A DNA stretch of 64,000 nucleotides from Spirodela intermedia. Its lineage: Eukaryota; Streptophyta; Magnoliopsida; Alismatales; Araceae. Under the pieces are notes generated by a model that saw only the letters and a program-made list of their open reading frames with translations, did not search any database and had not been told where the DNA came from. Numbering within the stretch: position 1 is the first letter of the stretch; each line of letters begins with the position of its first letter. Below, one piece after another: positions 4,751-64,000 of the stretch. The DNA lies in NCBI GenBank assembly GCA_902729315.2, contig LR746272.1:1929035-1993034 (forward strand), written 5' to 3'. Both the position numbers and the translations under genes were made by a program.

Positions 4751-6976
4751 ATGGCGGAGGGGAAGACTGCCGAGGAGAGCCGGGGGATGGAGGGAGCTTC
4801 TCGGGGTGTCCAGATGAGGAAGGGCGGTCTCCGGACAATGCCCTTCATCTTCGGTACTCCTTCTTCTTCTTCTTCTTCTTCTTCTGCTTCTTCTTCTTCT
4901 GCAACTGAAACATTGCGGTGGTGCAGCGAACGAGATAGCGGAGAAGCTGGCGGTGGTGGGCTTCTCAGCGAACATGATCAGTTACCTAACTCAAGAGCTC
5001 CACATGCCGCTGGTCAAGGCCGCCACCACGCTCACGAACTTCGGCGGCACCGCTAGCCTCACGCCGCTTCTGGGGGCCTTCCTCGCCGACGCCTACCTAG
5101 GTCGCTTCTGGACCATCACCGGCGCCTCCGTCATCTACCAGCTGGTACACCGGCCCTCCATCCACCCGTTGCGGCGGCGATACCTCTCCGGCGAAGCCCA
5201 TGAGACTGAGATTATCAGCTGGCTCTTCTCTTCCTCATGGCTGACTACTCCCTCCTCGTCGCAGGGCATGGTGTTGCTGACCCTGTCGGCGGCACTGCCG
5301 CAGCTCCACCCCCCGCCGTGCGCCGGGAACGAACCCTGCAAGGAAGCCTCCGGCGGGCAGCTGGCCGTCCTGTATGCGTCCCTCCTCCTGAACTCCCTCG
5401 GCGCCGGCGGGATACGCCCCTGCGTGGTGGCCTTCGGCGCCGACCAGTTCGACGAAGCCGATCGGAAGCAGAAGACGAGGACGTGGAACTTCTTCAACTG
5501 GTACTACTTCTGCATGGGGCTCTCCATCCTTGTCGCCGTCACCGCCGTGGTCTACGTGCAGGACAATGTCAGCTGGGCTTGGGGCCTCGCCATCCCCACC
5601 TTTGCCATGGCCGCCTCCCTCGTCTCCTTCGTCGCCGGCTTCCCCCTGTACCGCCACCTTGACCCTGCCGGCAGCCCCTTCACCAGGCTGTTGCAGGTCG
5701 CTGTCGCCGCCGCAAGGAAGCGCCGTCTGCCGCCAGTCACCGACTCCACCCCGCTGTACGATAACTCGGAGCTCGACGGCCCCATCTCCCTCGACGGCAA
5801 GCTCATCCACACCGGAAACCTAACGTGAGCTCCTCCGCCTCCGGCACTGTAGAACTCTCCCCCAGCTGTAATTGATGGGGAAGGAGACAATCCTCGGAGG
5901 TTCTCTCCCCCCATGTGCCCGGCCCATCATTGCCCCGTCCACAAGACAGCCGCAGAGTTAATGAGTTCTGACAAGCTTCGGAGGAAAATAAGGAGAAGCA
6001 TCGTCTATTTCTCCAACGTACAGTGCATAGCACCGGCGGAAATGGGGGGAAACTTCGTCGGTTTCCGTCTTTTTTAGTTGACGTGGGGGTTCGTCGTGTG
6101 AGTTGCAGGTTCTTGGACAAGGCGGCGGTGGTGGCGGAGGGGGAGGAGGAGGAGAAGCCCAACCTGTGGAGGCTGAGCACGGTGCACCGGGTGGAGGAGC
6201 TGAAGTCGCTGATGAGAATGGGGCCCATATGGGCGGCGGGGATCCTGCTGATCACGGCGGCGGCACAGCAGGGGACCTTCTCCCTGCAGCAGGCCCGCAC
6301 CATGAACCGCCGCCTGTCGTCCTCCTCCTCGTTCCAGATCCCTCCGGGTTCCATGGCGGTCTTCACCATCCTGTCGATGCTCACCACCATCGTCGTCTAC
6401 GACCGCGCCCTCATCCCCGCCGCGCGGCGAGCCACCGGGCTCCGGCGAGGAATCTCCTACCTGACCCGCATGGGCGTGGGCTTCGCCATCTCCGTCCTCG
6501 CCACGCTCGTCGCCGGCTTCGTGGAGGTGAAGCGGAGGGACGTCGCCGCCACGCACGGCCTGCTCGACCAGCCCCGCGCCACCGTCCCCATCTCCGTCTT
6601 CTGGCTCGTGCCGCAGTACGCGCTGCACGGCATGGCGGAGGCCTTCTCAGCCATCGGCCACCTCGAGTTCTTCTACGACCAGGCGCCGGAGAGCATGCGG
6701 AGCACGGCGACGGCGCTCTTCTGGCTCGCCATCGCCGCCGGTAACTACGCCAGCTCCTTCATCGTCTCCCTCGTCCACCGCTATAGAGCCCACTGGCTGC
6801 CGGATAATCTCAACAGGGGTCGGTTGGAGAATCTCTACTGGATCATCACCTTTCTCCAGCTCCTGAACCTCGCTTATTACGCCGCCTGCGCCCATTACTA
6901 CACCTTCAAGCCCCTGCAACAACGGCAGGCTGGGGACCCCCCGGAGGACTCCGTGGAGCTCCACACCAAGGTGTAG
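4751..6976 (+). CDS. NRT1/PTR family (NPF) proton-coupled transporter, NPF3-like
   Basis: A plasma-membrane-type major facilitator of the NPF/POT family, whose members move nitrate, nitrite, peptides or hormones with protons. Exons 4751-4853, 4927-5144, 5265-5824 and 6109-6976 join to 582 codons, the usual NPF length. The start ATG gives MAEGKTAEESRGMEG, a short acidic cytosolic tail. Exon 2 opens with NEIAEKLAVVGFSANMISYL, which carries the ExxE-K proton-coupling motif of TM1. Further landmarks are GADQFDEADRKQK, FFNWYYFCMG in the N-terminal half and FLDKAAVV at the exon 3/4 joint, the central-loop signature. The C-terminal half holds WLVPQYALHGMAEAF and LEFFYDQAPESMRSTATALF. The hydrophobic profile fits 12 helices. 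Sequence flavour resembles NPF3.1 (nitrite/gibberellin transporters), but the substrate cannot be read from sequence. Intron 1 is only 73 bp and contains a (TTC)n run. Confidence 0.93.
4859..4900 (+). repeat. (TTC)n microsatellite inside NPF intron 1
   Basis: A pyrimidine trinucleotide repeat with a single-unit interruption fills most of the 73-bp first intron and effectively forms its polypyrimidine tract. Confidence 0.85.
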
Positions 6977-7523
6977 CGGCGCCACCGCCGGAGGAAGTGG
7001 CCGTTGCGGTGCGGAATTCAACGTGCTGGCAGAATAATAGCCCGGAGTTTGGGGAAGGCTTCTTCTTCCAGCTGCCACCATCTATCTCCCTAGTAACTAT
7101 ACTCGAGTCTGCAGTCGATTCCAAGGGTATTAATGGGCCCTGCCCACTCACTGGGGAATGTGCAAGAATTGGCCCAATTATGGAATCGGGCCAACGTACT
7201 TGGATCGGATGTGTGTAACCCAATATTAGCCCATTAAAGGCCAGCAGCACCTGATTCGGCCCATTAACCCAAATACTCCTTAATTTGAAAATTATTTAAA
7301 TAGTAACATATTATATTTATGACGTCATATAAGTCAAATCATTAATTTAGCGGGAGGCCCTTTTGGCGGCATCGTTCTCCGAGCTTTTCGCACGTCGGCG
7401 GCCACATCCTCTTCTTCCTCCCCCCCGATTCTCCGGTCGAAACCCTTCTCCGCCATCCTCAACGGCGCCGGCGTCTGCAATCGTCCAGCAGAGAGAGAGA
7501 GAGAGAGAGAGAGAGATAGTCTA
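6977..7523. promoter_or_regulatory. NPF 3' flank and SPRTN promoter region
   Basis: This short intergenic stretch holds the NPF 3' UTR and the upstream region of the SprT-like gene. A perfect palindromic TGACGTCA (bZIP/CRE-type core) lies at 7320-7327, and a GA run at 7491-7516 ends just before the ATG at 7524, in the 5' leader. The promoter role is inferred from position. Confidence 0.45.
7320..7327. promoter_or_regulatory. Palindromic TGACGTCA bZIP-type element
   Basis: An exact 8-bp palindrome about 200 bp upstream of the SPRTN start. TGA- and CREB-type bZIP factors bind this core, but binding here is inference only. Confidence 0.35.
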
Positions 7524-46235: not shown

Positions 46236-48218
46236 TTACTCCCTTGGGCGAGCCAGCCACAGCGAGCTGAGTGCGCGGAGGCGCGAGAAGTAATCGTTGA
46301 TCGCCAGCAGAGCGCGGGCCGCCTGCCGCGTCGTCAGTATCCTCTGCATCTGGTGCAGGGTCTGCTGCCGCAGTAAATCAGCCTTCAAGAGCATAAAAAA
46401 CAGGAAACACAAGATGATTTTAGGGTTTACGCCTTGGTTAGAAGCGTGGCCGGAAAGTTTGGTTCCTCGGTATACCTGGCGGAGGAAGTTCTCCAGGGTT
46501 CCAAGCTTGCCCATGGCGAGCGCCATCTGACCCATGTAACTGGCAACGTTATCAGATCCGGGAGCCGGGCAAAGCGATCCTGAAGCAAGCGTCTCCGCAA
46601 GAGACTGCTGAAGAGCCTCCATTCCCTGCGAGAGAGCATCCTCGGCCTGCTGGGAGGACTGCTGGAGACTACACAGCCCCATCAGCTGCTGATCCGTCAA
46701 GGGCTCCACCTGACTCGCCAGTATCTGGAACGACCATCGTCCTCCAGATGAATCCAAGAAAGTGAAGAAGAATGAAGATAGTACGGGGAATCTGGTCGAA
46801 CCTTGAGGAGTTCCGATGACCGGAAGCCTCCCAGCCACATGAAGCACCTCTCGGCTGGAGTCGTCCACATTCCTGAGAGCATGTGGAATATATTGGATTT
46901 GGCTCCGATACTCTTGAGCTTGAAGACCTCGTCATAGTGCGCCATGACTGCATCGACTAGGAGGCTAAGCTCGTTGTCGCTCACATGAGAATTCACCGCG
47001 ATCCGAAGGTCACCAATCTGCCGCTGGTGCTCGTAGAGCCACCTCGAGTATTCCATATCGAACGTTAAGGAGCCTGAAAGGGTTGGAACAAGACCATAAC
47101 GAACATAATTTGAACGAGAAGAAAAAGCAACTTAAAAAACAATGAACACGATCACATACCACTTCCACCAAGTGAATGACCTTGTTCTCCCAAGCAACCG
47201 TTTGCAACAAAAACGCCCTACCAACATTTGACATATACAACAAACAAAAAACCAGTAATTCTTCGCTTCAAAGTTTTCTCGTCAGACGTTCACAAAAGAG
47301 AACGGGCTCACCTGCTGCCGTGCTCGTTGAAGTTCCTGCTCAAGCTGCAGCAGCTTTAAACGACTACTCTCCAGCTGTTGAACATAAGCCTACCCCAAAA
47401 TAACGAATATACTCGTCAAATGGAGCAACGTACATAACCGGAGAACAGCTTCCACATCAGCTACTGAGGATGGACAAAGGAAACATTACGGAGAACGTAG
47501 CAAACAGTAAAAACATGAAAATGACAAGTTAGCGGTTAACGGGTTGCATATGCTACACAGCCGCTCCTTATCACAGACGTTTGAAGATAACTGCTTCTCA
47601 TTCTAAGTAATAAATCAGACTATTATTGAAGTTAAAACAGTGATCCTTCTGCTTTCCAAACCCTCGCCTTACTCAATTCAACCTTCCATAAATTGCTAAC
47701 ATAGTTCATCGCTGCCGCTCAGTTGCTACCACTTCATTGCTAATAACAGAGGGCAGAAAAGGATGGAGACCCATGACAAGCGATTTCGCTTTCTATTGCT
47801 CCATGGTAATTCAATGCCACTAACAAAATATAAGCATCACAAAAAATCTCTATTTCCTCTTTCGTAGTTCCATGTTACCCTTGAATTCAACCAAAGGTTC
47901 TTGATGTGCACACCCTTGAAAGACGAAGAGCCTTTCCAAAATCTCATCAAAGATGGTAATAACTCTCATCGGTATAGGTAAATAGACCACATGGTTCGTA
48001 AGAAAACTTCAGCTCGAAGAACTTCATGGGGTGTTAGCAGCACCTCTCGTCCTGCATCACTCCTGGTCTTGAGTTTCCTTTGTAGTTGCCCATCAACTAG
48101 GAGGAATACCCACGAAATAACAGACTAATTTTGCATAATTCCATTACTCCATTGTTGAAAGAAGAAATGGCTCTTCTTGGTATGCGGAAGTCGAGCTCTA
48201 TTTGAGAGTTTAGGAGAC

Positions 48219-48306
<88 letters not shown>

Positions 48307-49241
48307 GGCGCTGACCATCGGGAGAACCGGTCTGAGAGTTAATTGTTCTCTCTAATTGAGTCAAATGTTAACCAGTAATCTCAACAGGTACAGAAGAGGA
48401 CTTACGAAGCAAAAGTTCATCAACAGGCACAGTCTGTGGGTACCTATAGAGCGAAGCGCAAAACCGAGGGGTATATTCAAAATCATGTGATCCTTTTTCG
48501 GGGGGGGGGGGGGGCGGCAAAATCAGAGAAGACAAGAAAAATCTGTCCCCGTCTATATCAGTCCATCTCAACGTACGTCCAAGTGAGTGAAATCGGGTTA
48601 GAGCGTCATCTTCGTGTCCCACCAAATTTTGCTCACTTCCAAGAAAAATTAGTTTGATAATGAGAATCTGATAAACACAGTTCGCTTACTTTCCATCACT
48701 AATCAAACTCAAAAAGGCCGCGCGAAAATCTATCGGCGTTACTTACTTTCTTCCTTAGACGGCTCTTCCTTGCAGCCTCACGATTCTGAGCAAGCCGACG
48801 GACTGTCTGAGCCAGAATGAGATCAAAGAGCAGGTCAGCCATACACCAACAAGAGCTTGATATGTTTCAGAGATAGAGCCGCCGGAAGAACCTTCTGGTC
48901 TTCAGATTTCCCCAAGGGTCTTCCGGAGGAGTCCAGAGAGACGGTCGCCCCATCTTGGTCGCCACCGGACTGGCACATGCAGAAGATACCATTAATAGAA
49001 GTTCCAAGAACCAAAACCATGTCGAGCGGATCAGATGATTTGCGGCGACGTGAGGGGTAGAAGATTTTACCGTCTTGTTTCGATCTTCTGCGTCCACTTC
49101 CACAGAGGTCTCCGTAGGACTGGACATTGCCATGCCGGAGTCATCCCAGCTGTCGAACTGCCCCTTCTGCACGCAGAACCGGCCTGGCTCCCCCCCAGCG
49201 GTCTCCGTCGTCGATGTGGTCACGTCAACCGACGCCAATCC
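46236..49241 (-). CDS. TGA-type bZIP transcription factor (clade with DOG1 domain), 5' exon(s) unresolved
   Basis: TGA factors bind TGACG elements and work with NPR1 in salicylate and detoxification responses, or with ROXY glutaredoxins in flowers. Eight minus-strand exons join in frame: 49241-49071, 48969-48892, 48806-48747, 47389-47312, 47217-47160, 47073-46802, 46724-46476 and 46382-46236 (TAA), 370 codons. The basic region is TVRRLAQNREAARKSRLRKK, followed by the leucine zipper (AYVQQLESSRLKLLQLEQEL). The DOG1/TGA domain begins DMEYSRWLYEHQRQ, contains FMWLGGFRSSELLK and YMGQMALAMGKLGTLENFLR, and ends near QAARALLAINDYFSRLRALS. Upstream of the bZIP is a Ser/Thr/Asp-rich N-terminal region (SVDVTTSTTETAGG). 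The start codon is further upstream, between 49.3 and 50 kb, but I could not fix the exon. Intron 3 carries an 80-bp GA array. Confidence 0.9.
48221..48303. repeat. (GA)n microsatellite in a TGA intron
   Basis: About 83 bp of GA repeats. The same array, shorter (60287-60331), marks the left edge of the duplicated copy, so it lies at one border of the segmental duplication. Confidence 0.95.
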
Positions 49242-50000
49242 CTGCCAAACATATGAAGATGTTTGAGTCAATGCTACCTCACAGGATTGCCGAGAGAAAA
49301 GGAAACGAGAAGAAGAGAGAGTACGTGGTGAGCTAAGCCACCGAACTGGAGGGCAGAGGAGGTGACGACGGTGAGGCTGCTGGATGACTTTGGGCTTAAA
49401 ATTGGACCTGAGAAGTTTGAAGGTTGAACACGGCTCATTGAGATTTCGTTTTGTATTATCGGAGGGAGGATGTGGTGAGGGGACTACTCCGGGTGAGATC
49501 GAGGACTGCGTCGACGATATGGTAACCCACCATCGCCGCCTGCTGCTGCTGAGCGTGGTGATGGTGGTGGCTGCCCATGCTGTGAATTCGAGCATTGTTG
49601 CTACTGTTGTCGTCCCCTCTTCTAGTTCATGAACAAGCCAGAACAGATAAGGAGGTAATAAGTACACAAGACATCAACAATGTGGCAAGATTCAAGACCA
49701 AGAAGTGAGAGAGAGAAAGATGGGGAAGAGGGAGGGAGGGAGAGAGTTGGAGAGCGCGCAAGAGTACCCGAGGAATGGAGAGTACATGATGTCGTCGCTG
49801 GGAGTGGAAAATTTGGTGGAAACAAGTCTAAACGAAGTTGTAGGCATGCAAATGGGGTAACGGGGGAAGGTTCAACTTCGGGTTTCATTGTTTCCTTAAA
49901 GCCTCTCTGAGCTTCTCTCTCTAAAGCGCTCCTTCTCTCTCCTGGTCTCGAACTTTCTGTCCATCGCTCAGAAGCGTCGTATCACTTCATATCGGTAGAG
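49242..50000 (-). promoter_or_regulatory. TGA gene 5' exon/leader region
   Basis: Conserved with 61.14-62.3 kb. Minus-strand reading shows a His/Gln-rich frame (MGSHHHHHAQQQQAAMVGYH) near 49580-49520, a Ser-rich frame (LSPKSSSSLTVVTSSALQFG) near 49405-49335 that fits TGA N-termini, and a leader ATG (MKPEVEPSPVTPF) at 49888. These lie in different frames, so introns or disruptions must separate them. I cannot choose the correct start. Confidence 0.4.
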
Positions 50001-52330
50001 AGACGGAGCAAGTATTACTATAAGAGACGAGGGAAGATGACGATCTTCAGGATCTCTATAATAATGTGGAGCCGACGAAAGCCATCGCGTCTCCACCTAT
50101 GCTGAGTTGCGTGGAGGAACGGATCCTGTCACCATCGCGTCTCCTCTCTCTCTCGTCTTCGAGTTCCTCTAGGTGCCCATTTATCTATTTGCCCATTAAA
50201 TCCTCTCTCCCCCTCGCTGTTCATCTACTCACATCTCTAGGAAAAACCCTATGATCTTGTCGAGGTCATCTGATAGGATTTCAGTACTGCTGCTGACGAT
50301 ATACAAGCTGATGCCGGTCCAGGTCTCTCCCTGTCGTCTCGCGACTGTTCTCCCTTACCTCAGACTCCCCTTCCACTGGCTCTCTTTAAATGGACTAACT
50401 CGCCACAGTACTCCTTCCCCGCCTCTCTCTCACTCTAATCTCTCTCCGCATCAGTTCACCATCAATAGAGCTCTGCCACCGTTCGAAGACGAAGAGCAGA
50501 GTTTCAGCTTCCCAACACCCTTACAAGCTATTCATCTCCCTGTCTCCATCTCTTCTCATATTTTCTTTATTCTCGACGGCTCCCCTGCTTCCCCAGGTCT
50601 TGGATTCTGGGAAAGGCTTAAAGCCTGCCGCAACGCCAGATACGGACGCGATGCGACGAGAGGAGTGCAAGGGTTATTTAAGACGCCGAGAACCCGTCTC
50701 CCTCTTCCGGATTATGTAGGGCACTTGAAGTCGACTCCATCTATGGGATGTGACCAGAAACCCGGCAGAGAGAGCTCCTTTTCCTCGCCAGGAAGCAAGA
50801 CTCGAGGAACTCCACTTTCTTGCAGAGATGCTCATCTGGAGCTGCGGAGAAAGCGGGGCGACAGGATATCCCATCAAGTGACGCGGTCCTCGCGGAGCTC
50901 AACTATTCACGTTGGAGCGGAACCGTAGCAAAGGGCTCTTCCTGCTGTGGCGACGTCTTCGAGTAGGGTCGCGCATCCCCATGACATGGGAGGTTCCCCT
51001 TGCCCAAAGCCTGTGAGAGGAGCATTTACGTCATCTGGGATAGCTTCTGGGGACTCGCAGATTTGAAGGTACGTAGCGATTCTTAGGTGTTTACCCAAAC
51101 TCCTGGGGAACGACGGCGGCAGTCCGTTCTCCTCTTCTGCCCCGATATGGCGGCGAGGAGTCATAGGCAGAGTCCCCCAGCCGCTTCTCCCATTTTTCTC
51201 GTGGATTTCGCTCGGCTGGCATCTTATATAGTTTTCCTTAACAAATAGGTGTTCCTTACTCTTTGGAGCTCTGTAAGTACATAAGCTTTCTATTTATATG
51301 ATAACACGATTTTTTTTCAACTTAAGGAACTTCATATCCTTGATATTTTCTTAATTTGAAAGTGATTACATTCGGCCAGAAAAGGAGAAAACGGGCGCCG
51401 TCCAGGGGACACTACTGGTTTTACTTTTATTGAAACCCTATTCCTTCCTGCGCTACACCTCTGAAGCTGATTGGATATCGGGTTAAGATTTATCCTAATT
51501 TTAGTTTCATAACACACTCTTTGTCTTAGTTTAACTTGGACTAATTTAATTTCAGGTTGATCATTGCAAGGATAAGTCAAGTAGGCTAGATTACATTATC
51601 TGATCCAGATAATTAGGTTTCCTTGGATAAACTTGGGAATTTTGACATGTTCTAATGTTAATGAGTTATCGAACTACTACCTAGAGGATACAAAATTGTG
51701 TCTACTATGCTCACTTAGTAAAACTTAATCTCATGACGTAAACGTAAGAAGGTTACTGCATTTTTGAGATCTCTCGTTTCTTATGGGTAACATTTTGATA
51801 ACCAACGATTTAAGATGCTACAAGGGGTGAAATATAATTGATTTTTGGGACATAGACGAGGATAGAAATCTACTTCAGATTCTCCTGAAGTAAAGAGTAT
51901 GTGAATGAAGCATTGAGTGATGGATATGATAGTCAAACTCTCCCTCTGTGGCATGTACTTAAAAGAATAGCCGGGAAGAGTGTTTGAATCCCGCAATTTT
52001 TCATGTTAAAACTCGACACGCAGTTATGTCCTATTTAGAACTGCGGTGTCGTACCCTTTCTGATCCCTTCACAAATGAGCGACATCCAGTAATCTCAACT
52101 AAAAATCACAAATATTACCCAAGATTGAATGCTCCATGATTCACAGGTTCGTCGAAAACATTAGCCATGATTTCACAGGCCTTAATATTACCATAAGTTA
52201 GTTAACGTTCCAGGTTTTGTCGAAAGCAGCAGCTTCTCGATGGAAGAAACCAAGAATGGGCAATGGTAATGGTGATAGGTTCCCTTTTGCAACCGCTATT
52301 TATGGCTGAGAAGCCTTAACCTTATTAGTG
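50001..52330. other. Duplicated TGA upstream DNA and unassigned flank
   Basis: 50.0-51.66 kb is the outer part of duplication copy A. It contains a plus-strand open frame of 225 codons (50251-50928) rich in Ser/Pro/Leu with no recognisable domain. From 51.66 to 52.33 kb I see no gene or repeat match inside the window. Confidence 0.5.
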
Positions 52331-53528
52331 GACTTAATTAAGCGAACTTGAGGGGCCCATTATTCGCGAATTCATGGTCTGATTCTCCGGTGTCCCACTA
52401 TTTCTTGCCTCAACGGATTCCCCACTGACTGGATGCCGTCCCAACCTGAAACGGGAGGGGATCGCTTTGAACCCTTTTCGTGTAATTCAGGTCATGATCT
52501 TATTGGTTGAAAACAACATGAAACAACGCTTGGATTCAAATCGAGTCCGCCGCACAGTGCACAAAACGGAAGTGATAAATCTGAATGCTAGTCAGTATGC
52601 AGTTGCCTAAACTGGAGTCACATGGTCGAAGAAATTTCAACTTTTAGTGTACAGAGGTCGCTATCCCGAAGGATATCGGCGATCTGCATGAAGTCCGGAA
52701 GATCATTACGACGGATTTGGAAACTTTCTGCGCTTGTTAGCGCTCGCATCAACGGTGTCGTACAGCAGTGAAGAAGATCCCGGAGGAAAGGAAGAATTTG
52801 GTTGTCCGAAAATTGCGTTGATGGTCAACGGCGTCGTTGGCAGGTGAATTTGTCTTAGGATGGGTAGGGATAACCTCGATAGCACCGTACTGAGGAGCCG
52901 GTGCAATGGGTTTCCACGCGGGAACTCCTCCAGATCTGGGGATCTCTTGCTGTTTGTTCGTTCTGGCATGCGTATGTTGGCTATATATAGAGAACGAAAT
53001 ATTCACCTGAAACACAGCCAGTCTCGCGTGACAATAGCATTAAAGGATTCGTTATGGCATTCTGATGAAGACGTCCGAGGTTAGACATAGACAGTTGACC
53101 TGAGATTATAATGATGTATACTTCGTTGCTGACGTACGGCTTATTAAAGTTTCCTTCTCTTCTCTTTCGTTGACGAGAATTTGATGATGCCACATAAGCG
53201 AGTAGGTTGGGACGTAGACCGGTAGACTTTCCCCGATTCCTATGGTGAACCATAGATGGATCATAGTTCGACATAGGCGCGCGGAACAGGGCAGAGAGTC
53301 GGAGAGTAAAACGCGGTTCCGGCGGCCCTCAATCTTAGATGAGGAATGAATACCTTTCCTTGCCCTGGGTTTTGCCAACTTTGTGGGTATGATGATGACA
53401 GACTATAAACTGAAGGGCTGTAAGTGAATTATGACCTCCAATGGAGCCTATAAAGTAGGCATTAGAATTAACTTTACTGGTAATCTGAAATAACCTTTAG
53501 TAAGGTATTAATGGAAATTTAGATCAAT

Positions 53529-53900
53529 TGTTGAATCATGAATAATTAAAAGTAAGATAGTGATCACATACTTGGGTATATTCTGACTCAAATATTTGTG
53601 TGGCCCTTTGAATTAGCACAAGTGACTCATCCACACTATGAATTCCTCTCTTGAAATGTTAATATGTTCCAAAAATGATTCTAGATTGGTGTGATCCAAA
53701 GACAACGACTCCTTAAATAGCCAAGAGTTAGTTATCCACTCTAGTTTTTCATCACATAATGATATAATTGCATTTAACTTAGATGATAATACTTAAACTC
53801 TAAATACTTAATTTGCAACATATTATTTTGATAATAATAATTAATTATAATCACATACATAATTTATATATAAATGCCCATATTAAAATTAAATATGACA
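53529..53900 (-). mobile_element. Ty1/copia LTR (3' LTR of a minus-strand element)
   Basis: Begins TGTTGAATCATG and ends ATATGACA (TG...CA), followed by ATCTCTCACTTGAG, which read on the minus strand is a purine-rich polypurine-tract-like sequence next to the RNase H remnant. It is related to the solo LTR at 61242-61686 by its ends and by its middle (AAATAGCCAAGAG against the TATA region there). Confidence 0.7.
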
Positions 53901-54414
53901 ATCTCTCACTTGAGTAAAATATATAATATCCTTATAATTGTATATTATGACATTATGAGTTTACTATTATTACCAAAGCCATTACTAACAATTTAGTTAA
54001 TCAATTGTACTAATTTGACATAGTGTTTTTTTCAATATTTATATGTAATTAAACTTTGTAATAATCACATATTGATATAATTAAAGACATTACCAAGTAT
54101 TAATGTATATTAATGGACTTCAAATATATACATTTCTAATTGATCTAGTTTTACTATGTATGAAGATTAACAAAATAAATTTAGTAGTTAAACAAATATA
54201 AACTTTATTCATATAAGAAATTATCATAGTATGTGTCTATAACTATAAAAGTATGAAAATTATAAACTTTCACTTAAATTACAAATCCTCATGAGGAATT
54301 ACACCTATATCAATGTTGTACTTGTGAAAGACTTTGGGTGAGTAGTTTATTAGTAAGTGAGTCCTACTATGGGTCCCACTTAGGAAATTACTACAATGGA
54401 GTTGTCCAATATGA

Positions 54415-54555
54415 TAAATACGTCTAACGAGTTTCAATCCCTAACAACAAATAACTTGAGGTCTATGTGTTTAGACTTTGTTAAGCTCTAATTATTCTTG
54501 AAATAAATGACATATTTATTATCACAAAATATCTTTAGCAATATTCTAATTTTAT
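54415..54555 (-). pseudogene. Decayed copia RNase H domain, copy 1
   Basis: Minus-strand translation gives ILLKIFCDNKYVIYFKNN, a stop, then SLTKSKHIDLKLFVVRD and another stop. CDN and SKHIDxK are signature positions of Ty1/copia RNase H. In-frame stops and the missing upstream pol domains mark it as a dead fragment. Confidence 0.75.
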
Positions 54556-54570
54556 TCAAAATCTGTGATG

Positions 54571-54687
54571 TAAACTGCTCACCCAAAGCCTTTCAAGTTG
54601 AGAATATCTTCGTTTTATTTTTTATTATTATTATCATAATTAACTCATCAAAATTTCAATAAAATTTAGGACAAAATGTAATTAATG

Positions 54688-54724
<37 letters not shown>

Positions 54725-56164: not shown

Positions 56165-57485
56165 TCTGCAAACTTCATTAAGCATTTGAAGTGACCTTTT
56201 ATTTGCATATTCATAGTCTAATTCTCTAATAGCCCACTCTTTATTACCTCAATAGATTTCTCATGAACTAGATGACCGTCCCAACCTAAAATGGGTAGGG
56301 ATAGCTTTGAATACTTTTTGAGTAATTCAAGTCATTTTCTTATTGGTTGGAAATAGCATTAAGTATAGTTAGATTTAAATTGAAGTTGCTGCAAAGTGCT
56401 AAAAAGAAAGTGATAAATCTGAATGCAAGTTGGTATGTAGTAGGCTAAATTAGAGTCACATGGTGGAAGAAATCTGACTTTTTGTGTACAAAGGTCACAC
56501 TCCTAAAGGATATTGGTAATCTGCATGAAAGTTGGAAGATCATCATGATGGCTTGGGAAATTTTCTACGCATGTTAGTGCCCACATTTATGGTGTTGTTT
56601 AGGAGTGAAGAAGATATTGAAAGAATTAGGTGATTAGAATATTGCTTTGATGGTCAACGACATCGTTGGCAACTAAATTTAATGAGTGCAATGAGTTCCC
56701 ATGTAGGAGTTATGTCTCCTCTATCTCTAGGATTCTCTTGTTGTTAGTCCACTCTACCTTATATTGGATGGCTACATATAGAGAATGAAAGATTCACTTG
56801 AAACACTATTAGTCTCTTGTGACAACAACTTTAAAGGACTTGATATCACTTTTTGATGAAGATATACGAGGTTTTTTATAGATAGTTAACCTAAGATTAT
56901 ATTGATGCATACTTATTTACATAGGTACAGCTTAGTAAAGTATGTTTTATCATCTTTTCAATTGATGAAGATTTGGTGATGTTCACATAAGTGAGTAGGT
57001 TAGGACGAAGATGGTAGAATTTCCTTGATGTCATTCATGAGTAGTAGACTTGATTGATCATAATTTGACATAGGTGTATAGAGCATGACAAAGAGATGGA
57101 GCGATAAACTCAAGATTGGCAAGCCTCATGCTTAGATGGGAATGAAAACCTTTTTGTCCTTGGTTCAGCCAACTTAGATGGGTATAATGATGTTGGCTTG
57201 TAAATTGAAGGATGGCAAATCAATCATCATTTATTATTTCATAAGCTAAATTGATGATGTCTTATAAAACTTAATAATTTTATTTGCATCTTATGAATAA
57301 TGTGAATGTGATAATTTTTTTACATAATTTTAAATACATCATTGTGTTATGAATTTGAAAAATTATGACACAATAGAGCCAACCAACATGCAGTAGAAAT
57401 AATTATTTCTAGTAAAATGAAATATTATGTACAGTTATTTACATAAATCTCTTTAATAAGGTATTGATGAAAATTATAAATTTAG

Positions 57486-57874
57486 TGTTGAATCATGAAG
57501 CATAATTAGGGAAAGATGGCGATTAAGAGATGTATTTGAGTCCTTTTAGACTCAGATGTGGGTGTGGTGTTTTAAATTAACATAAGTGACTCATCCACAC
57601 TATGGCTTACTCTCTTAAATTGATGAGATATTCCAAAAGTTACTCTAGATTTTTGTGATCCAAATACCATGAATTCTTAATTAGCCAAGAGGTGGTTATG
57701 ACTAGTACGTTTTATTTCTCAATTTTACTTATAATAAAAATAAATTTAAGACTTGACCTCTACATATAATACTATTTAACTCATAATGAATCTATTTAAC
57801 AATAAATAAATTTAAATATAATATTATAATACATAATTTATATCTGAATGTCTACATTGAAATTAATTTTAATA
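57486..57874 (-). mobile_element. Ty1/copia LTR, second copy, degraded
   Basis: Begins TGTTGAATCATGAAG like the 53529 copy and can be followed to AATTAATTTTAATA, where the terminal CA has been lost. It precedes the second RNase H remnant. Confidence 0.6.
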
Positions 57875-58389
57875 AATTTTTAGTTGTAATATATAGAATC
57901 TTATTATAAATATATATTATGACCTTATCAATTCATTAAATTTATTAAAACTATTAGTGTCACCTCCAATAATTTAGTCTATCAATTGTATTATTATATG
58001 ATAAAAATAGTTTTCATTATATTTTTATAAAATTACAATTATTAATAATTACATTTATTGATCTAATGAATGACATAGATCACGTATAAATATGTAGTAT
58101 TGAGATTCAAATAAGTACATTTCAAGTTGATTCAATTTTATTTGTGTATAGAGATCAATAAAATAAATTTAGGTTGTCAATCAAACATAATCTTTATTCA
58201 TACTTAAACTAATCATAGGATATGTCTAAAAATTGTAAGCATCTCGAAATCTAACCTTTTACTAAAATCAAAAAACTTCATAAAGAATTACACCTATATG
58301 AATAATGTGCTTGTGAAATACCTTGAGTGATAGTCTCCTAATAAATGAGTTAATGATCGTAGAGTTTGTCCCAATATGCTATATATACA

Positions 58390-58460
58390 TCTAAACAATT
58401 TGAACTCTTTTCTTAATGACTGAGAACTTGATATTTATGTGCTTAGACTTCAAATAGGCC
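58390..58460 (-). pseudogene. Decayed copia RNase H domain, copy 2
   Basis: Minus-strand translation around 58395-58455 gives KSKHINIKFSVIKKRVQ, the counterpart of the SKHIDLK motif in the first copy. Flanking frames are broken. Only this short motif is legible. Confidence 0.6.
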
Positions 58461-58530
58461 AACCTTGGTTATCAAATAGGTTACAATTTTTAGTAATTAT
58501 TTAAAAAATATTTTTGATAAATTAGGTTAA

Positions 58531-60285
58531 TTATAATTCTTACAATATATTTAAGTATTCTATTTCATCACTCAGCCACACCATACATGTTAAGAGATAA
58601 TTATTTAGTATATTGTAAGACGATACCACCACACTCTTTTAAGACTTGAAGAAAGATCCTTAATATTATTTACTTAATCTGTAATATCTACCATAATATT
58701 CACTACTACAATATGATTTAATAGCTTTAATATTTTTATTTAAAAAGTATTAACGTTTTTTTTATATTTTTTAAACATAGTTGGTGATTAAGACTTCTTA
58801 CGAATGAGATATAAATAGTTATGAGAATAATAATTTATGAATGTAATAAAATATTTTTGACTATTCAGAAAGTCTTAGAGAATGTCTCATAGATATTTAG
58901 ACAAATTAATTCAAATATGTCCGAAGTGCAATTGAGACATGTTCTCTGTCTGTTTGTTTGTTATTTCTTGATATAATTGATACATATGTTAACATTATTA
59001 TAGTCAAGTAGGTCAAATATTTCATTGAAGTCAAATATCTTAACTCTCTTTAGAAAAATAGGAAATAATCTCTTTTGTCATAGTGAAGTAAATTTTTTAT
59101 TTTTTACCCCTTGAACTTATGTTAAGAGTTTTAATACATGTGACTATAACATAAAACACATAAAGGTTATCAGTAATAGATAAGCAAAGGGTAACAATGC
59201 AGTTCAAATTTTGAAAGAGATTGAGCTGATTATTTTTAAATAAATAAGAATAAGAAAATTTATTTTTCTAATAAAATTTAACATTTAAATGTATATAACT
59301 TTTTATTAGAATGTGAATCAAATTTAATCTTATTTAAATTTAAATAGTGACCAATCTTTAATAACTGAAATATTCTTGTAGTCACAACTTAATCATCAAT
59401 GATATAAATTGGTACGTTTCAACCAACTTGTTAACCATTAGTTTGCTAAAACTTAAAACAAGATATTACATACATGAAAGTATGAAAATTGTATTTGCCC
59501 CAAATTATCAAAATCTAGTTGAATATTATTAAATAAAAAGGCAAATATTACATATGAAGTTGTTATTGTATTTTGTTATACAAATGAGCCTTGTAGGCTT
59601 CATTTTTGCGTTAGGTAAAGCCAAGCTTTGCTCTTGATAAACATGCATGTTTTAAGAGACTACAAGAAGAATCAAGAGAAGTGGGTGTTGAATTAGTGTT
59701 TTTGGACATCTAATTAATATTATGTTTCTAGTTGCAAGAACTAAGGTTTATAATGCTTTGCTCTTTGAGTACCATGTCCTTAAGTTAGGCCTTTTGAGAT
59801 CCTTAAAGGATAAAAACAGTAGTGCCAATAAGTTTCAGTAATTCAAACTGATATAATTTATAATATATATATATATATATATATATTTTCATCATAAATA
59901 TTCCAGACATTCATGTGACATTTAATGGTCTGATTGTTGGCTTTGAAAGCTTAAATGTTTTGACGATGACAAAGGGTAACATGATAATGTTTGATTGAAA
60001 ATTTTATATTATTTATTAAATGTGAATCACTATAGGTAAAGTAAATAGTTAAAAGATGAAAAAATCACTCAAATATAAAACATAGTGTACTCAACAGAAA
60101 GATAATTGGGAGGAACATGATTCAACAGATAACACATCAAAGTTCAAAGATTTAGATTTTTCATGATTTTCAAAAGGTGAACGAATGTTCATATAGTTTT
60201 AATTTTTGACGAGGACTGCCTAAAATGAAGTATTTGATTGCCGAATATGATGCACGCGTAAGGGTCTGAACGAAATAACTAAATT

Positions 60286-60286
<1 letters not shown>
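58531..60286. other. AT-rich repeat-derived DNA
   Basis: AT-rich with an AT run at about 59863-59885. No gene, RNA or legible transposon protein. It probably contains further decayed copia interior at its left end. Confidence 0.5.

Positions 60287-60331
<45 letters not shown>
60287..60331. repeat. (GA)n microsatellite at the edge of copy A'
   Basis: Counterpart of the 48221-48303 array, about half its length. Confidence 0.95.
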
Positions 60332-60334
<3 letters not shown>

Positions 60335-60689
60335 AGAAAAATGAGGGTGCATTTTAGTATGGTGGTAGCCATCGGGAGAACCGATATGAGAGTAAATCGT
60401 TCTCTAAATGGGTCAAATATCAACCAGCAATCTCAACATACAGGCAGAAACTTACACGGGAAACTTAACGAGGCGAAAGTTTCTCAGCAGGTACAGTATG
60501 TGGGGGCCAATAGGGTGAAGCGAAATAGAGAGGTAAAATCTGGCAGGGCAAGAAAAATCTGTGCATGTCTCTATTAGTCCATTTCAACGCACGTCCCAGT
60601 TGAAATAGGTTGGAGTGTCATCTTCATATATCCCACCAAATTTTGCTCAATTCTAAGAAAAAATAGTTCGAGAATGAGATGATATGTCC

Positions 60690-62270
60690 CAGTTGACCGG
60701 CTGTCTGAGCCAGAATGAGATAAAAAAAATAGGTCAGTCATACATCAAGAAGAGCATAGCAAGCATCAGAAGACAACCGCCGCAAGAACCTTCTGATTGT
60801 TAGTTTTGCCCAAGGGTCTGCCGGAAGAATCCAGATAGACGATCGCCCTCTCCTGGTAGCCACTGGACTGGTGCATGCAGAAGATACTATTAACAGCAGC
60901 TCCAAGAGCGTAAACCATGTCGACCGGATTGGATGATTTGCGGGCGGCATGAGGGGGGGGGGATAAGACGTTACCGTTTTTTTTCGATCTTCTGCGTCCA
61001 CTTTCATAGACGTCTCCATTGGACTAGACATTGCCATGCCGGAGTCATCCCAACTGTCGAACTACCCATTCTGCATGCAGAGCCAGCTTGACTCCCTCGG
61101 AAGCGGTCTCCGTCGTCGATGTGGTCACATCGATAGACGCCAATCTCTGTCAAACACGTGAAGATGTTTGAGTCAATGGCACTGCACGGGATAACCGAGA
61201 GAAGGGGAAAACGAAAAGAAGGTACGGTACGTGGTGAGCTATGTTGAATATGAAGGATCTTGTGTTGATATAGATGGAGAATGACAAAACGTAATGAGAA
61301 TGAATTGAAACCATATCTAAATCTATGAAGGTGCAAGTACGAGGATGATCGTTTTGATCAACATATGGGAGTCGTCCAATGACTTGTTCTAGAGAGATGG
61401 AATGTTCTAAGAGTGAATCATGATGTGTGACTTAAGGATCATGACCCCGTATTTATAGACAAGAGGTGGTTAACCTCTTGATGTCTTTTTCTAATTTAGC
61501 CCATCATAAAATTGAAATAAGACCTGATCTCTATACATATATCTATTTATGACCATACTTACGAGAGAAGTCATAATCTCAAATACTTAAACTTCAATGA
61601 ATCACTTTAAGTGAGATTAATTTAATGATAGTCTCATAATATACAAGTTATATATATCATTATCCACATTGAGATTAATTCTAACAAGCTAAGTCACTGA
61701 ACCCGAGAGTAGAGGAGGTGACGATAGTGAGGCTCCTAGATGACTTTGGGCTTAAAATTGGACCTGAGCAGTTAGAAGGATGAATACGACGCATTGAAGA
61801 TTTCTCAACTATCGGCAGAAAGATGTGGTGAAGGGATTACTCCGGTTGAGATTGAGGACTGCGTCGATCGATGTGATAATCCACTATCGCTGCCTGCTGC
61901 TGCTGAGAGTGGTGGTGGTGGCTGCCCATGCTGCGAATTTTAGCATTGTTGCTGCTGTTGTCGTCCCCTCTTCCAGTTCATGAACAAACCAGAACTGATA
62001 AATAGGTAATGAGAACACAAGATATTAATAATATGTCAAGATTCAAGAACAAGAAAAGAGAGGGGGAGGGAGGGATAGAGTGGAGAGTGGAGAGTACCAC
62101 AGGAAGGGAGAGTACATATTGTCGGCCGGGGGAGTGGAAAATTAACGGATTCAAGTCCAAACGAAGTTGAAGGCTTGCAGATGGGGGGAACGGGGGCGTG
62201 TGCGACTTCGGTTTTTCATTGTTTCCCTTAAAGCCTCTCTTTCTGTTTCTCTCTCTACCACGCTGCATTT
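60690..62270 (-). pseudogene. TGA bZIP 5'-fragment pseudogene
   Basis: Minus-strand remains of the TGA gene's N-terminal exons. The exon with AMSSPMETSMKVDAEDRKKT is legible (about 61035-60975), as is the relic of the following exon (near 60905-60790). Upstream, the SIDVTTSTTETAS stretch (about 61142-61105) is in a different frame, with a stop where the intact gene reads KGQFDSW. The acceptor CAG of that exon is altered. The basic-region exon is almost gone: only its first dozen bases match, then the sequence jumps into the intron. No zipper or DOG1 exons occur to the left. It cannot make a TGA protein. Confidence 0.85.
61242..61686 (-). mobile_element. Solo LTR of a Ty1/copia element with 5-bp target duplication
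   Basis: A 445-bp insert beginning TGTTGAATATG and ending ATTCTAACA (TG...CA; TGTT/AACA inverted ends), flanked by AGCTA at 61237-61241 and 61687-61691. The paralogous site in copy A reads GTGAGCTAAGCC at 49328-49339, with a single AGCTA and no insert, so the empty site is preserved. On the minus strand it carries a TATAAATA box (61450-61457), as expected for the LTR promoter. No internal sequence or second LTR is present, so it is the product of LTR-LTR recombination. Confidence 0.92.
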
Positions 62271-64000
62271 CTCTTCTGGACGAAGCAGGTAATATAAGAG
62301 AGAAAGAGAAGGTGACGATCTCCAGGATCTCTATAATAATGTGGAGCCAGCGAAAGCCCTACTAGCCACCTATGCTGAGTTGCGTAGAGGCACGGATCCT
62401 GTCACCATCGCGTCTCCTCTATCTCTCTCTCTCTCTCCCTCTTCGCGGTCCTACAAAAGATTATTTATCTATTTCTCCATTAAATCCTCTCGCACTCTCG
62501 CTGTTCATCTACTCACATCTCCAGGAAAAACCCTATGATCTAGAAGCTGATGCCGGTCCTGGTCTCTCCCTGTCGTCTCGCGACTGTTCTCCCTTCAGAC
62601 ACCTCCCTTTCCTCGCCTGGAAGCAAGGCTCGAGAAAGCGGGGCGATAGGATATCCCACCAAGTGACGTGGTCCTCACTCAGCTCAGCTATTCAGTTGGA
62701 CCGGAACCCTAACCAAGGGTTCCTGCTATGGCGACCTCTTCAAATAGATTCACGCATCCCTATAACAAGGGAAGTTCCCCCTGGGCTAAGCCTCTGACAG
62801 GAGCGTTTACGTCATCTGGGATAGCTTCTAAGGACTCGCAGATTTATAGGGTACCTAGCGATTCTGTGTTTACCCAAGCTAACCACGGGGAATGACGGCA
62901 GCAGACCGTTCTCCTCTTCTGCCCCGCTGCTGGCGGCGAGGAGTCACGGTACTGATGGGGGCAGGTTTCCCCCTCACTTCTCCCATTTTTCTCGTGGATT
63001 TCACACTGTTGGCATTTTATATAGTTTCCCTTAGCCAATACGTGTTGCTTCCCCTTCGAAGTTCCGTACATACCTATGCTTTCTATTTAGTTCTGGTTGT
63101 TGATTAAAAAAATTTATTTTTCAAACTGACTGATGTTCCTACCAATCTAAGCAAAGGGAATTAGACCCGAAAAGGAGATAAAACGGGCACCGTCCAGGGG
63201 AAACTACCTTTTTATGCTCGGAATATCAGGATGGAAGAAAATGAGTGAAAAATTTCAAAAACATTTATTTATGAAATAATCAATTTAAACTAATATAAAA
63301 ACAATACCATGGTACGAAACATGTGATGATAAACTCAAGATAACCCTTAGCTAGCTATCTCTAGCTCATTTAAACGGACACCACTATTTCACACATTTTG
63401 TTCAAATATCATTTTATTCCACATTTTATAAATCATATTCTGCGTACGAATTGAAATGGAAATAGATATCTTATTAAAACCATTTCATAATTTAATGTTA
63501 GTACAAATGAATTTCTAATGAATGTAAACGTTTCATAGTCCTGATAATGACAATTAATGGATTCGGTTCATATCTCAAACTCTTGGTGCAAATCATGTCT
63601 TTCTCATATTGATGTCTTTAAGCTTTGATTCACAATAATATTCACATATAATATCAAAAGTCATTAGACCACTCAACTGCAGCCTTAACATCATGCTCCA
63701 AACTAAATAGATAAATGCATCAATATATCAATATATATGGTTTTTTTAACCTTTTTAAAAAACCTTATTTTCTTCTCTACTACACAACTCTAGAGCTGAT
63801 TTCATAACCGGGTTGATATTTTAATTTATCCTGCTTTTAGTTTGATGACATGCTCTCTCTTTGGCGTACGTTAACTTGGGCTAATTTAGGTTCAGTTTGA
63901 TCAAAGCAACAATAAGTAACCTAGATTACGTTATCCGACTTATAGATCATTACGGTTACTTTGGATAAACCAGGAAAACTATTTACATGGAGGTCACAAA

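Follow-up and report, generated by a model that had tools for sequence, protein, structure and literature searches.

Two diverged copies of one gene region, one of which carries a transposon-like insertion, raise the question of what was inserted and whether insertion followed or preceded the duplication. We addressed this question for a stretch of 64,000 nucleotides of Spirodela intermedia DNA (C9:1929035-1993034, hereafter the window), in which a reading made from the sequence alone had placed a solo LTR at 61237-61691 and had proposed that a TGA block was duplicated first, that an element then inserted in copy A', and that it finally recombined to a solo LTR.

The LTR, its target duplication and the empty site

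The features at the insertion are the following.

61242..61686, minus strand: solo LTR of a Ty1/copia-type retrotransposon (445 bp, TGTT...AACA; limits from flank alignment)
61237..61241, no strand: target-site duplication AGCTA, left copy (flank alignment)
61687..61691, no strand: target-site duplication AGCTA, right copy (flank alignment)
61450..61457, minus strand: TATAAATA box within the LTR (read in the sequence; putative function)
49331..49335, no strand: empty target site, a single AGCTA in paralogue A (flank alignment)

The sense of the element is minus, and the TG...CA ends with TGTT/AACA tips (61242 and 61686), the 5-bp AGCTA on both sides (61237-61241 and 61687-61691) and the minus-strand TATAAATA box (61457-61450) named in the sequence-only reading were all found; the span given there was right but takes in both 5-bp repeats, with the LTR proper at 61242-61686. 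In the alignment of the two copies that had been called for, block A matched the left flank as far as 61241 and the right flank from 61687 onwards, and the two matches met at the same single AGCTA. It is exactly at this AGCTA that the copies cease to be similar and become similar again, and the uninterrupted paralogous sequence previously noted at 49328-49339 was borne out, containing one AGCTA at 49331-49335. A chance TSD-like 5-mer was considered and rejected: on the plus strand of the window, 136 intervals of 400-500 bp read TGTT...AACA, and an exact 5-bp flank match was present in only one of them, the window LTR, against about 0.13 expected by chance (1/1024 each).

Neither a primer-binding site nor a purine tract was detected beside the window LTR (both scored 10, the 99% levels from 1000 random sequences being 20 and 24, respectively), and no interior remnant was found at the site. 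Given that neither sequence adjoins it, the element is a solo LTR, with TG...CA ends, no internal region, a matching target-site duplication and the same sequence as paired LTRs elsewhere in the genome. It is like the solo LTRs of plant Ty1/copia retrotransposons in its TG...CA ends, its 5-bp target duplication, the lack of an interior and the existence of full-length relatives with a tRNA-Met primer site. No structural difference from them was seen; here the empty site happens to survive in a paralogue 12 kb away.

Relatives of the LTR in the genome

A search of the genome (136.5 Mb, 32 contigs) with the window LTR gave at least 41 matches, a lower bound given that 40 of 157 first-look candidates were scored; one is the window's own copy, 39 have 79-86% identity to it, and the last is partial, at 69%. 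A census of 41 LTRs was then compiled, with the window copy included, an extra usable LTR from L016 added, and the 69% copy and two partial L023 fragments left out. By scores above the 99% levels, a primer-site sequence followed 10 of the 41, a purine-tract sequence preceded 17, and 14, the window copy among them, had neither; as the sample favours LTRs closely related to the window copy, it yields no genome-wide solo-to-complete ratio. L042 scored over both levels (40 and 25) and was placed with the 10 primer-site LTRs. L033, with a primer-site score of 18, was placed with the 14, yet AGTGGTAT comes directly after it, and it is therefore probably a 5' LTR.

Among the 14, exact in-register 5-bp flanks were found in four (the window copy, L009, L045 and L050) and flanks alike at 4/5 in register in two (L019 and L032). 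Two more (L017 and L034) had exact flanks with a 3-base shift at one end, and six (L013, L030, L033, L036, L044 and L047) had no clear flank repeat, L036 matching only with both ends shifted; shifted matches are each the best of 49 tries and hence weak. L045 and L050, which have common flanks, are probably one insertion seen twice. Both L045/L050 and L046/L049 are LTR pairs with similar flanks in which one member lies on a large contig and the other on the small C19 or C20, and they represent either recent segmental duplicates or unmerged haplotypes. At L044 (C1:10629600-10630943), two family LTRs, one of them the partial copy at 69%, lie in opposite orientation within 1.3 kb.

For the proposed search for full-length elements, long flanks (about 9 kb) were taken for 11 loci, 9 of them on both sides, the C18 locus on one side and the C6 locus L027 whole, and two LTR pairs were found, on C6 (L027) and C13 (L015/L016). 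The sequence is thus not confined elsewhere to non-LTR repeats, since family LTRs bound full-length copia elements. The L027 element, about 6.9 kb long, has its LTRs at 2085 and 8500 and is flanked on both sides by the TSD GATGC, with TGGTATCAGAGCC following the first LTR as primer site and AAGTGAAAGAT preceding the second as purine tract; the TATAAATA box is present in both LTRs. Five pieces of this element were scanned for domains, of which three separate ones matched Pol_BBD (1.4e-7), SH3_retrovirus (6.7e-16) and RVT_2 (2.6e-13), and two near the 5' end gave no domain match. The SH3_retrovirus piece (5976-6278), an SH3-like domain that we take to belong to the integrase end, lies ahead of the RVT_2 piece (6998-7318), the order that would be expected with integrase before reverse transcriptase in a Ty1/copia pol, and no match was obtained for the integrase core. 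The L027 copy is broken, its coding sequence being split into short pieces spread over more than one frame. The C13 pair has the flanks CCTCA and CCTCG, alike at 4/5, and reverse transcriptase (RT) matches lie between its LTRs.

The same genome contains a tRNA-Met gene whose 3' end, reading GGCTCTGATA, is complementary to the family primer site (TGGTATCAGAGCC). Based on the Pol_BBD, SH3_retrovirus and RVT_2 domains, the tRNA-Met primer site and the purine tract of these relatives, the LTR family is Ty1/copia. Use of a tRNA-Met primer by most copia groups and 5-bp target duplications in 93.4% of the plant elements surveyed are stated in excerpts of PMC6317226. Four RT matches of equal score also occur on C6 at 8959551, 8986682, 9013811 and 9040940, a spacing of 27.1 kb that suggests near-identical 27-kb units in tandem, or a repeat in the assembly.

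The TGA-type gene, its broken copy and the tandem array

The insertion lies in the second of two paralogous blocks.

48240..51296, minus strand: block A, TGA-type bZIP gene, 5' part, including the bZIP basic-region exon (predicted gene model from exon pieces)
60287..63089, minus strand: block A', diverged, broken duplicate of A holding the solo LTR (alignment, exon comparison)

The block A exon with the bZIP basic region reads TVRRLAQNREAARKSRLRKK on the minus strand and matches two profiles, bZIP_1 at 1.3e-5 with 25.6 bits, which is short of the 27.6 cut-off, and bZIP_2 at 1.4e-4 with 22.3 bits, which lies at its cut-off. A DOG1 domain at 46799-47020, the only one inside the window among the 14 listed genome-wide, is on the same strand and is taken to be part of the same gene; bZIP and DOG1 together presumably mark this gene as a TGA factor. 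In A', most of the bZIP exon is deleted, and the exon preceding it has a stop directly before FDSWDDSG in that frame and a one-base frameshift upstream. A' is therefore a pseudogene fragment of the TGA-type bZIP gene. The earlier view of a duplicated TGA block was correct in that A and A' are duplicates, but A' is a pseudogene fragment within a larger tandem duplication that extends past the window.

The presumed acceptor of the A' exon preceding the bZIP exon lies some 90 bases downstream of the insertion point, so the solo LTR presumably sits in an intron of A'. Disruption of a working gene by the LTR is not supported, A' being a broken copy. The genome search with A returned only A itself, three A' pieces and, weakly, two stretches of some 50 bases. 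About 490 bases of A (50357-50846) are opposed to about 36 bases of A' (62596-62631), reflecting an insertion in A or a deletion in A'. Open frames reading SLSLSL occur near the edge of both copies (48125-48367 and 60170-60432), which suggests (GA)n microsatellite runs.

The duplication is direct and in tandem: 48240-53426 pairs, in pieces, with 60287-65723, beyond the window end. The B part occurs a third time as B' (56172-58350), between the A-B and A'-B'' units; this copy is about 70% identical to B, and B'' is 76% identical to the first 1095 bases of B. The local array in direct orientation thus reads A-B (48240-54362), B' and A'-B'' (60287-64000 plus L067), and B' may be the remainder of a third unit with its A part lost. 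The array also contains older fragments of the same copia family.

53482..54566, minus strand: older copia-family 3' fragment (pol end, purine tract, LTR remnant) in block B (alignment)
57465..58450, minus strand: corresponding older 3' fragment of the same family in B' (alignment)
58528..59364, minus strand: further internal piece of the same family adjoining B' (alignment)

The fragments in B and B' are at matching positions, align with scores of 404 and 399 where shuffled sequences reached at most 187 and 216, and are apparently one insertion copied by duplication. It seems, then, that one family insertion is older than the B/B' duplication and that the solo LTR is younger than the A/A' duplication. 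When the fragment was looked for in B'' by BLAST, the one match paired B' 57201-57496 with B'' 65703-65987 and ended some 30 bases beyond the edge of the LTR; B 53301-54700 had no BLAST match in B''. A local alignment of the fragment to B'' reached 188.8, the highest of 60 mononucleotide shuffles being 156.6, and was not counted given that the sequence is AT-rich and such shuffles are weak controls. B'' either was without the older copia insertion, lost it, or holds a much-decayed remnant.

Order of events and its alternatives

Starting from the observed LTR identity, exact junctions, empty site and decay of A', we infer that duplication of A was very probably followed by copia insertion in A' and then by LTR-LTR recombination to a solo LTR. 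A tandem segmental duplication would have copied the 5' part of the TGA-type bZIP gene and its upstream region, and copy A' would have decayed, a step that is placed neither before nor after the insertion. A Ty1/copia retrotransposon would have integrated in the presumed A' intron and generated the 5-bp AGCTA duplication, and homologous recombination between its two LTRs would then have removed the interior and one LTR, leaving the 445-bp solo LTR with both target-site duplications intact and copy A retaining the site without insertion. LTR elements are not known to excise cleanly, and duplication before insertion is therefore the simplest order; with its exact junctions and the empty site in A, the locus supports the order proposed in the sequence-only reading.

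Divergence, by which that reading meant to date the insertion against the duplication, was indecisive. A/A' K2P values in four segments were 0.205, 0.177, 0.174 and 0.182 (about 0.09-0.10 per copy), the LTR pairs of the two full-length elements gave 0.148 and 0.163, and the window LTR had a terminal branch of 0.099, which is an upper bound only on insertion age; L016, the relative closest to it, differs by K2P 0.14, or about 0.07 per copy. The LTR and A/A' values overlap once halved per lineage (0.099 versus 0.174-0.205), and the order of events thus rests on the empty site.

A terminal branch of 0.099, roughly half the A/A' divergence, also fits an insertion before or during the duplication, as a heterozygous allele, with the duplication joining empty and filled alleles so that A looks empty. 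We consider this unlikely, as it requires a filled and an empty allele to have exchanged unequally while the insertion was still polymorphic, and the branch caps the insertion age from above, the nearest relative pointing to about 0.07 per copy. Short inverted tips are found in other element types as well, which would allow a non-LTR repeat or a small DNA transposon resembling an LTR; with 27 of 41 family members joining a copia primer-site or purine-tract sequence and two LTR pairs bounding whole elements, this is in effect refuted. Direct integration of an LTR-sized copy, for example a one-LTR intermediate, with the full element never at the site, would produce the same final structure and leave no interior trace, as seen here. 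It is nonetheless very unlikely, because the family has full-length copies and because LTR-LTR recombination is the well-known route, described in PMC7251063 as a general process that removes elements in plants.

With duplication, insertion into A' and LTR-LTR recombination as the best reading, this case is ordinary in kind though unusually clear in its record. The TATAAATA box of the window LTR is intact and the LTR reads in the TGA gene's direction. It is extremely unlikely that the solo LTR keeps promoter activity and drives an A' pseudogene transcript affecting TGA gene expression; if it did, that transcript would share sequence with the intact TGA gene and alter its expression. A search of titles and abstract openings found no literature on this locus. 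In Spirodela polyrhiza, of the same genus, about 8 solo LTRs per complete element are reported (Michael et al., as cited in an excerpt of PMC7645714), a high ratio also cited in an excerpt of PMC10989885, and these solo LTRs represent the same outcome of LTR-LTR recombination. The window LTR adds one more example to the reported solo-LTR excess in Spirodela and leaves the general view unchanged. It offers a clean teaching case, in which insertions of one copia family seemingly predate (the B/B' fragments) and postdate (the A' solo LTR) local duplications, with the empty site alongside.
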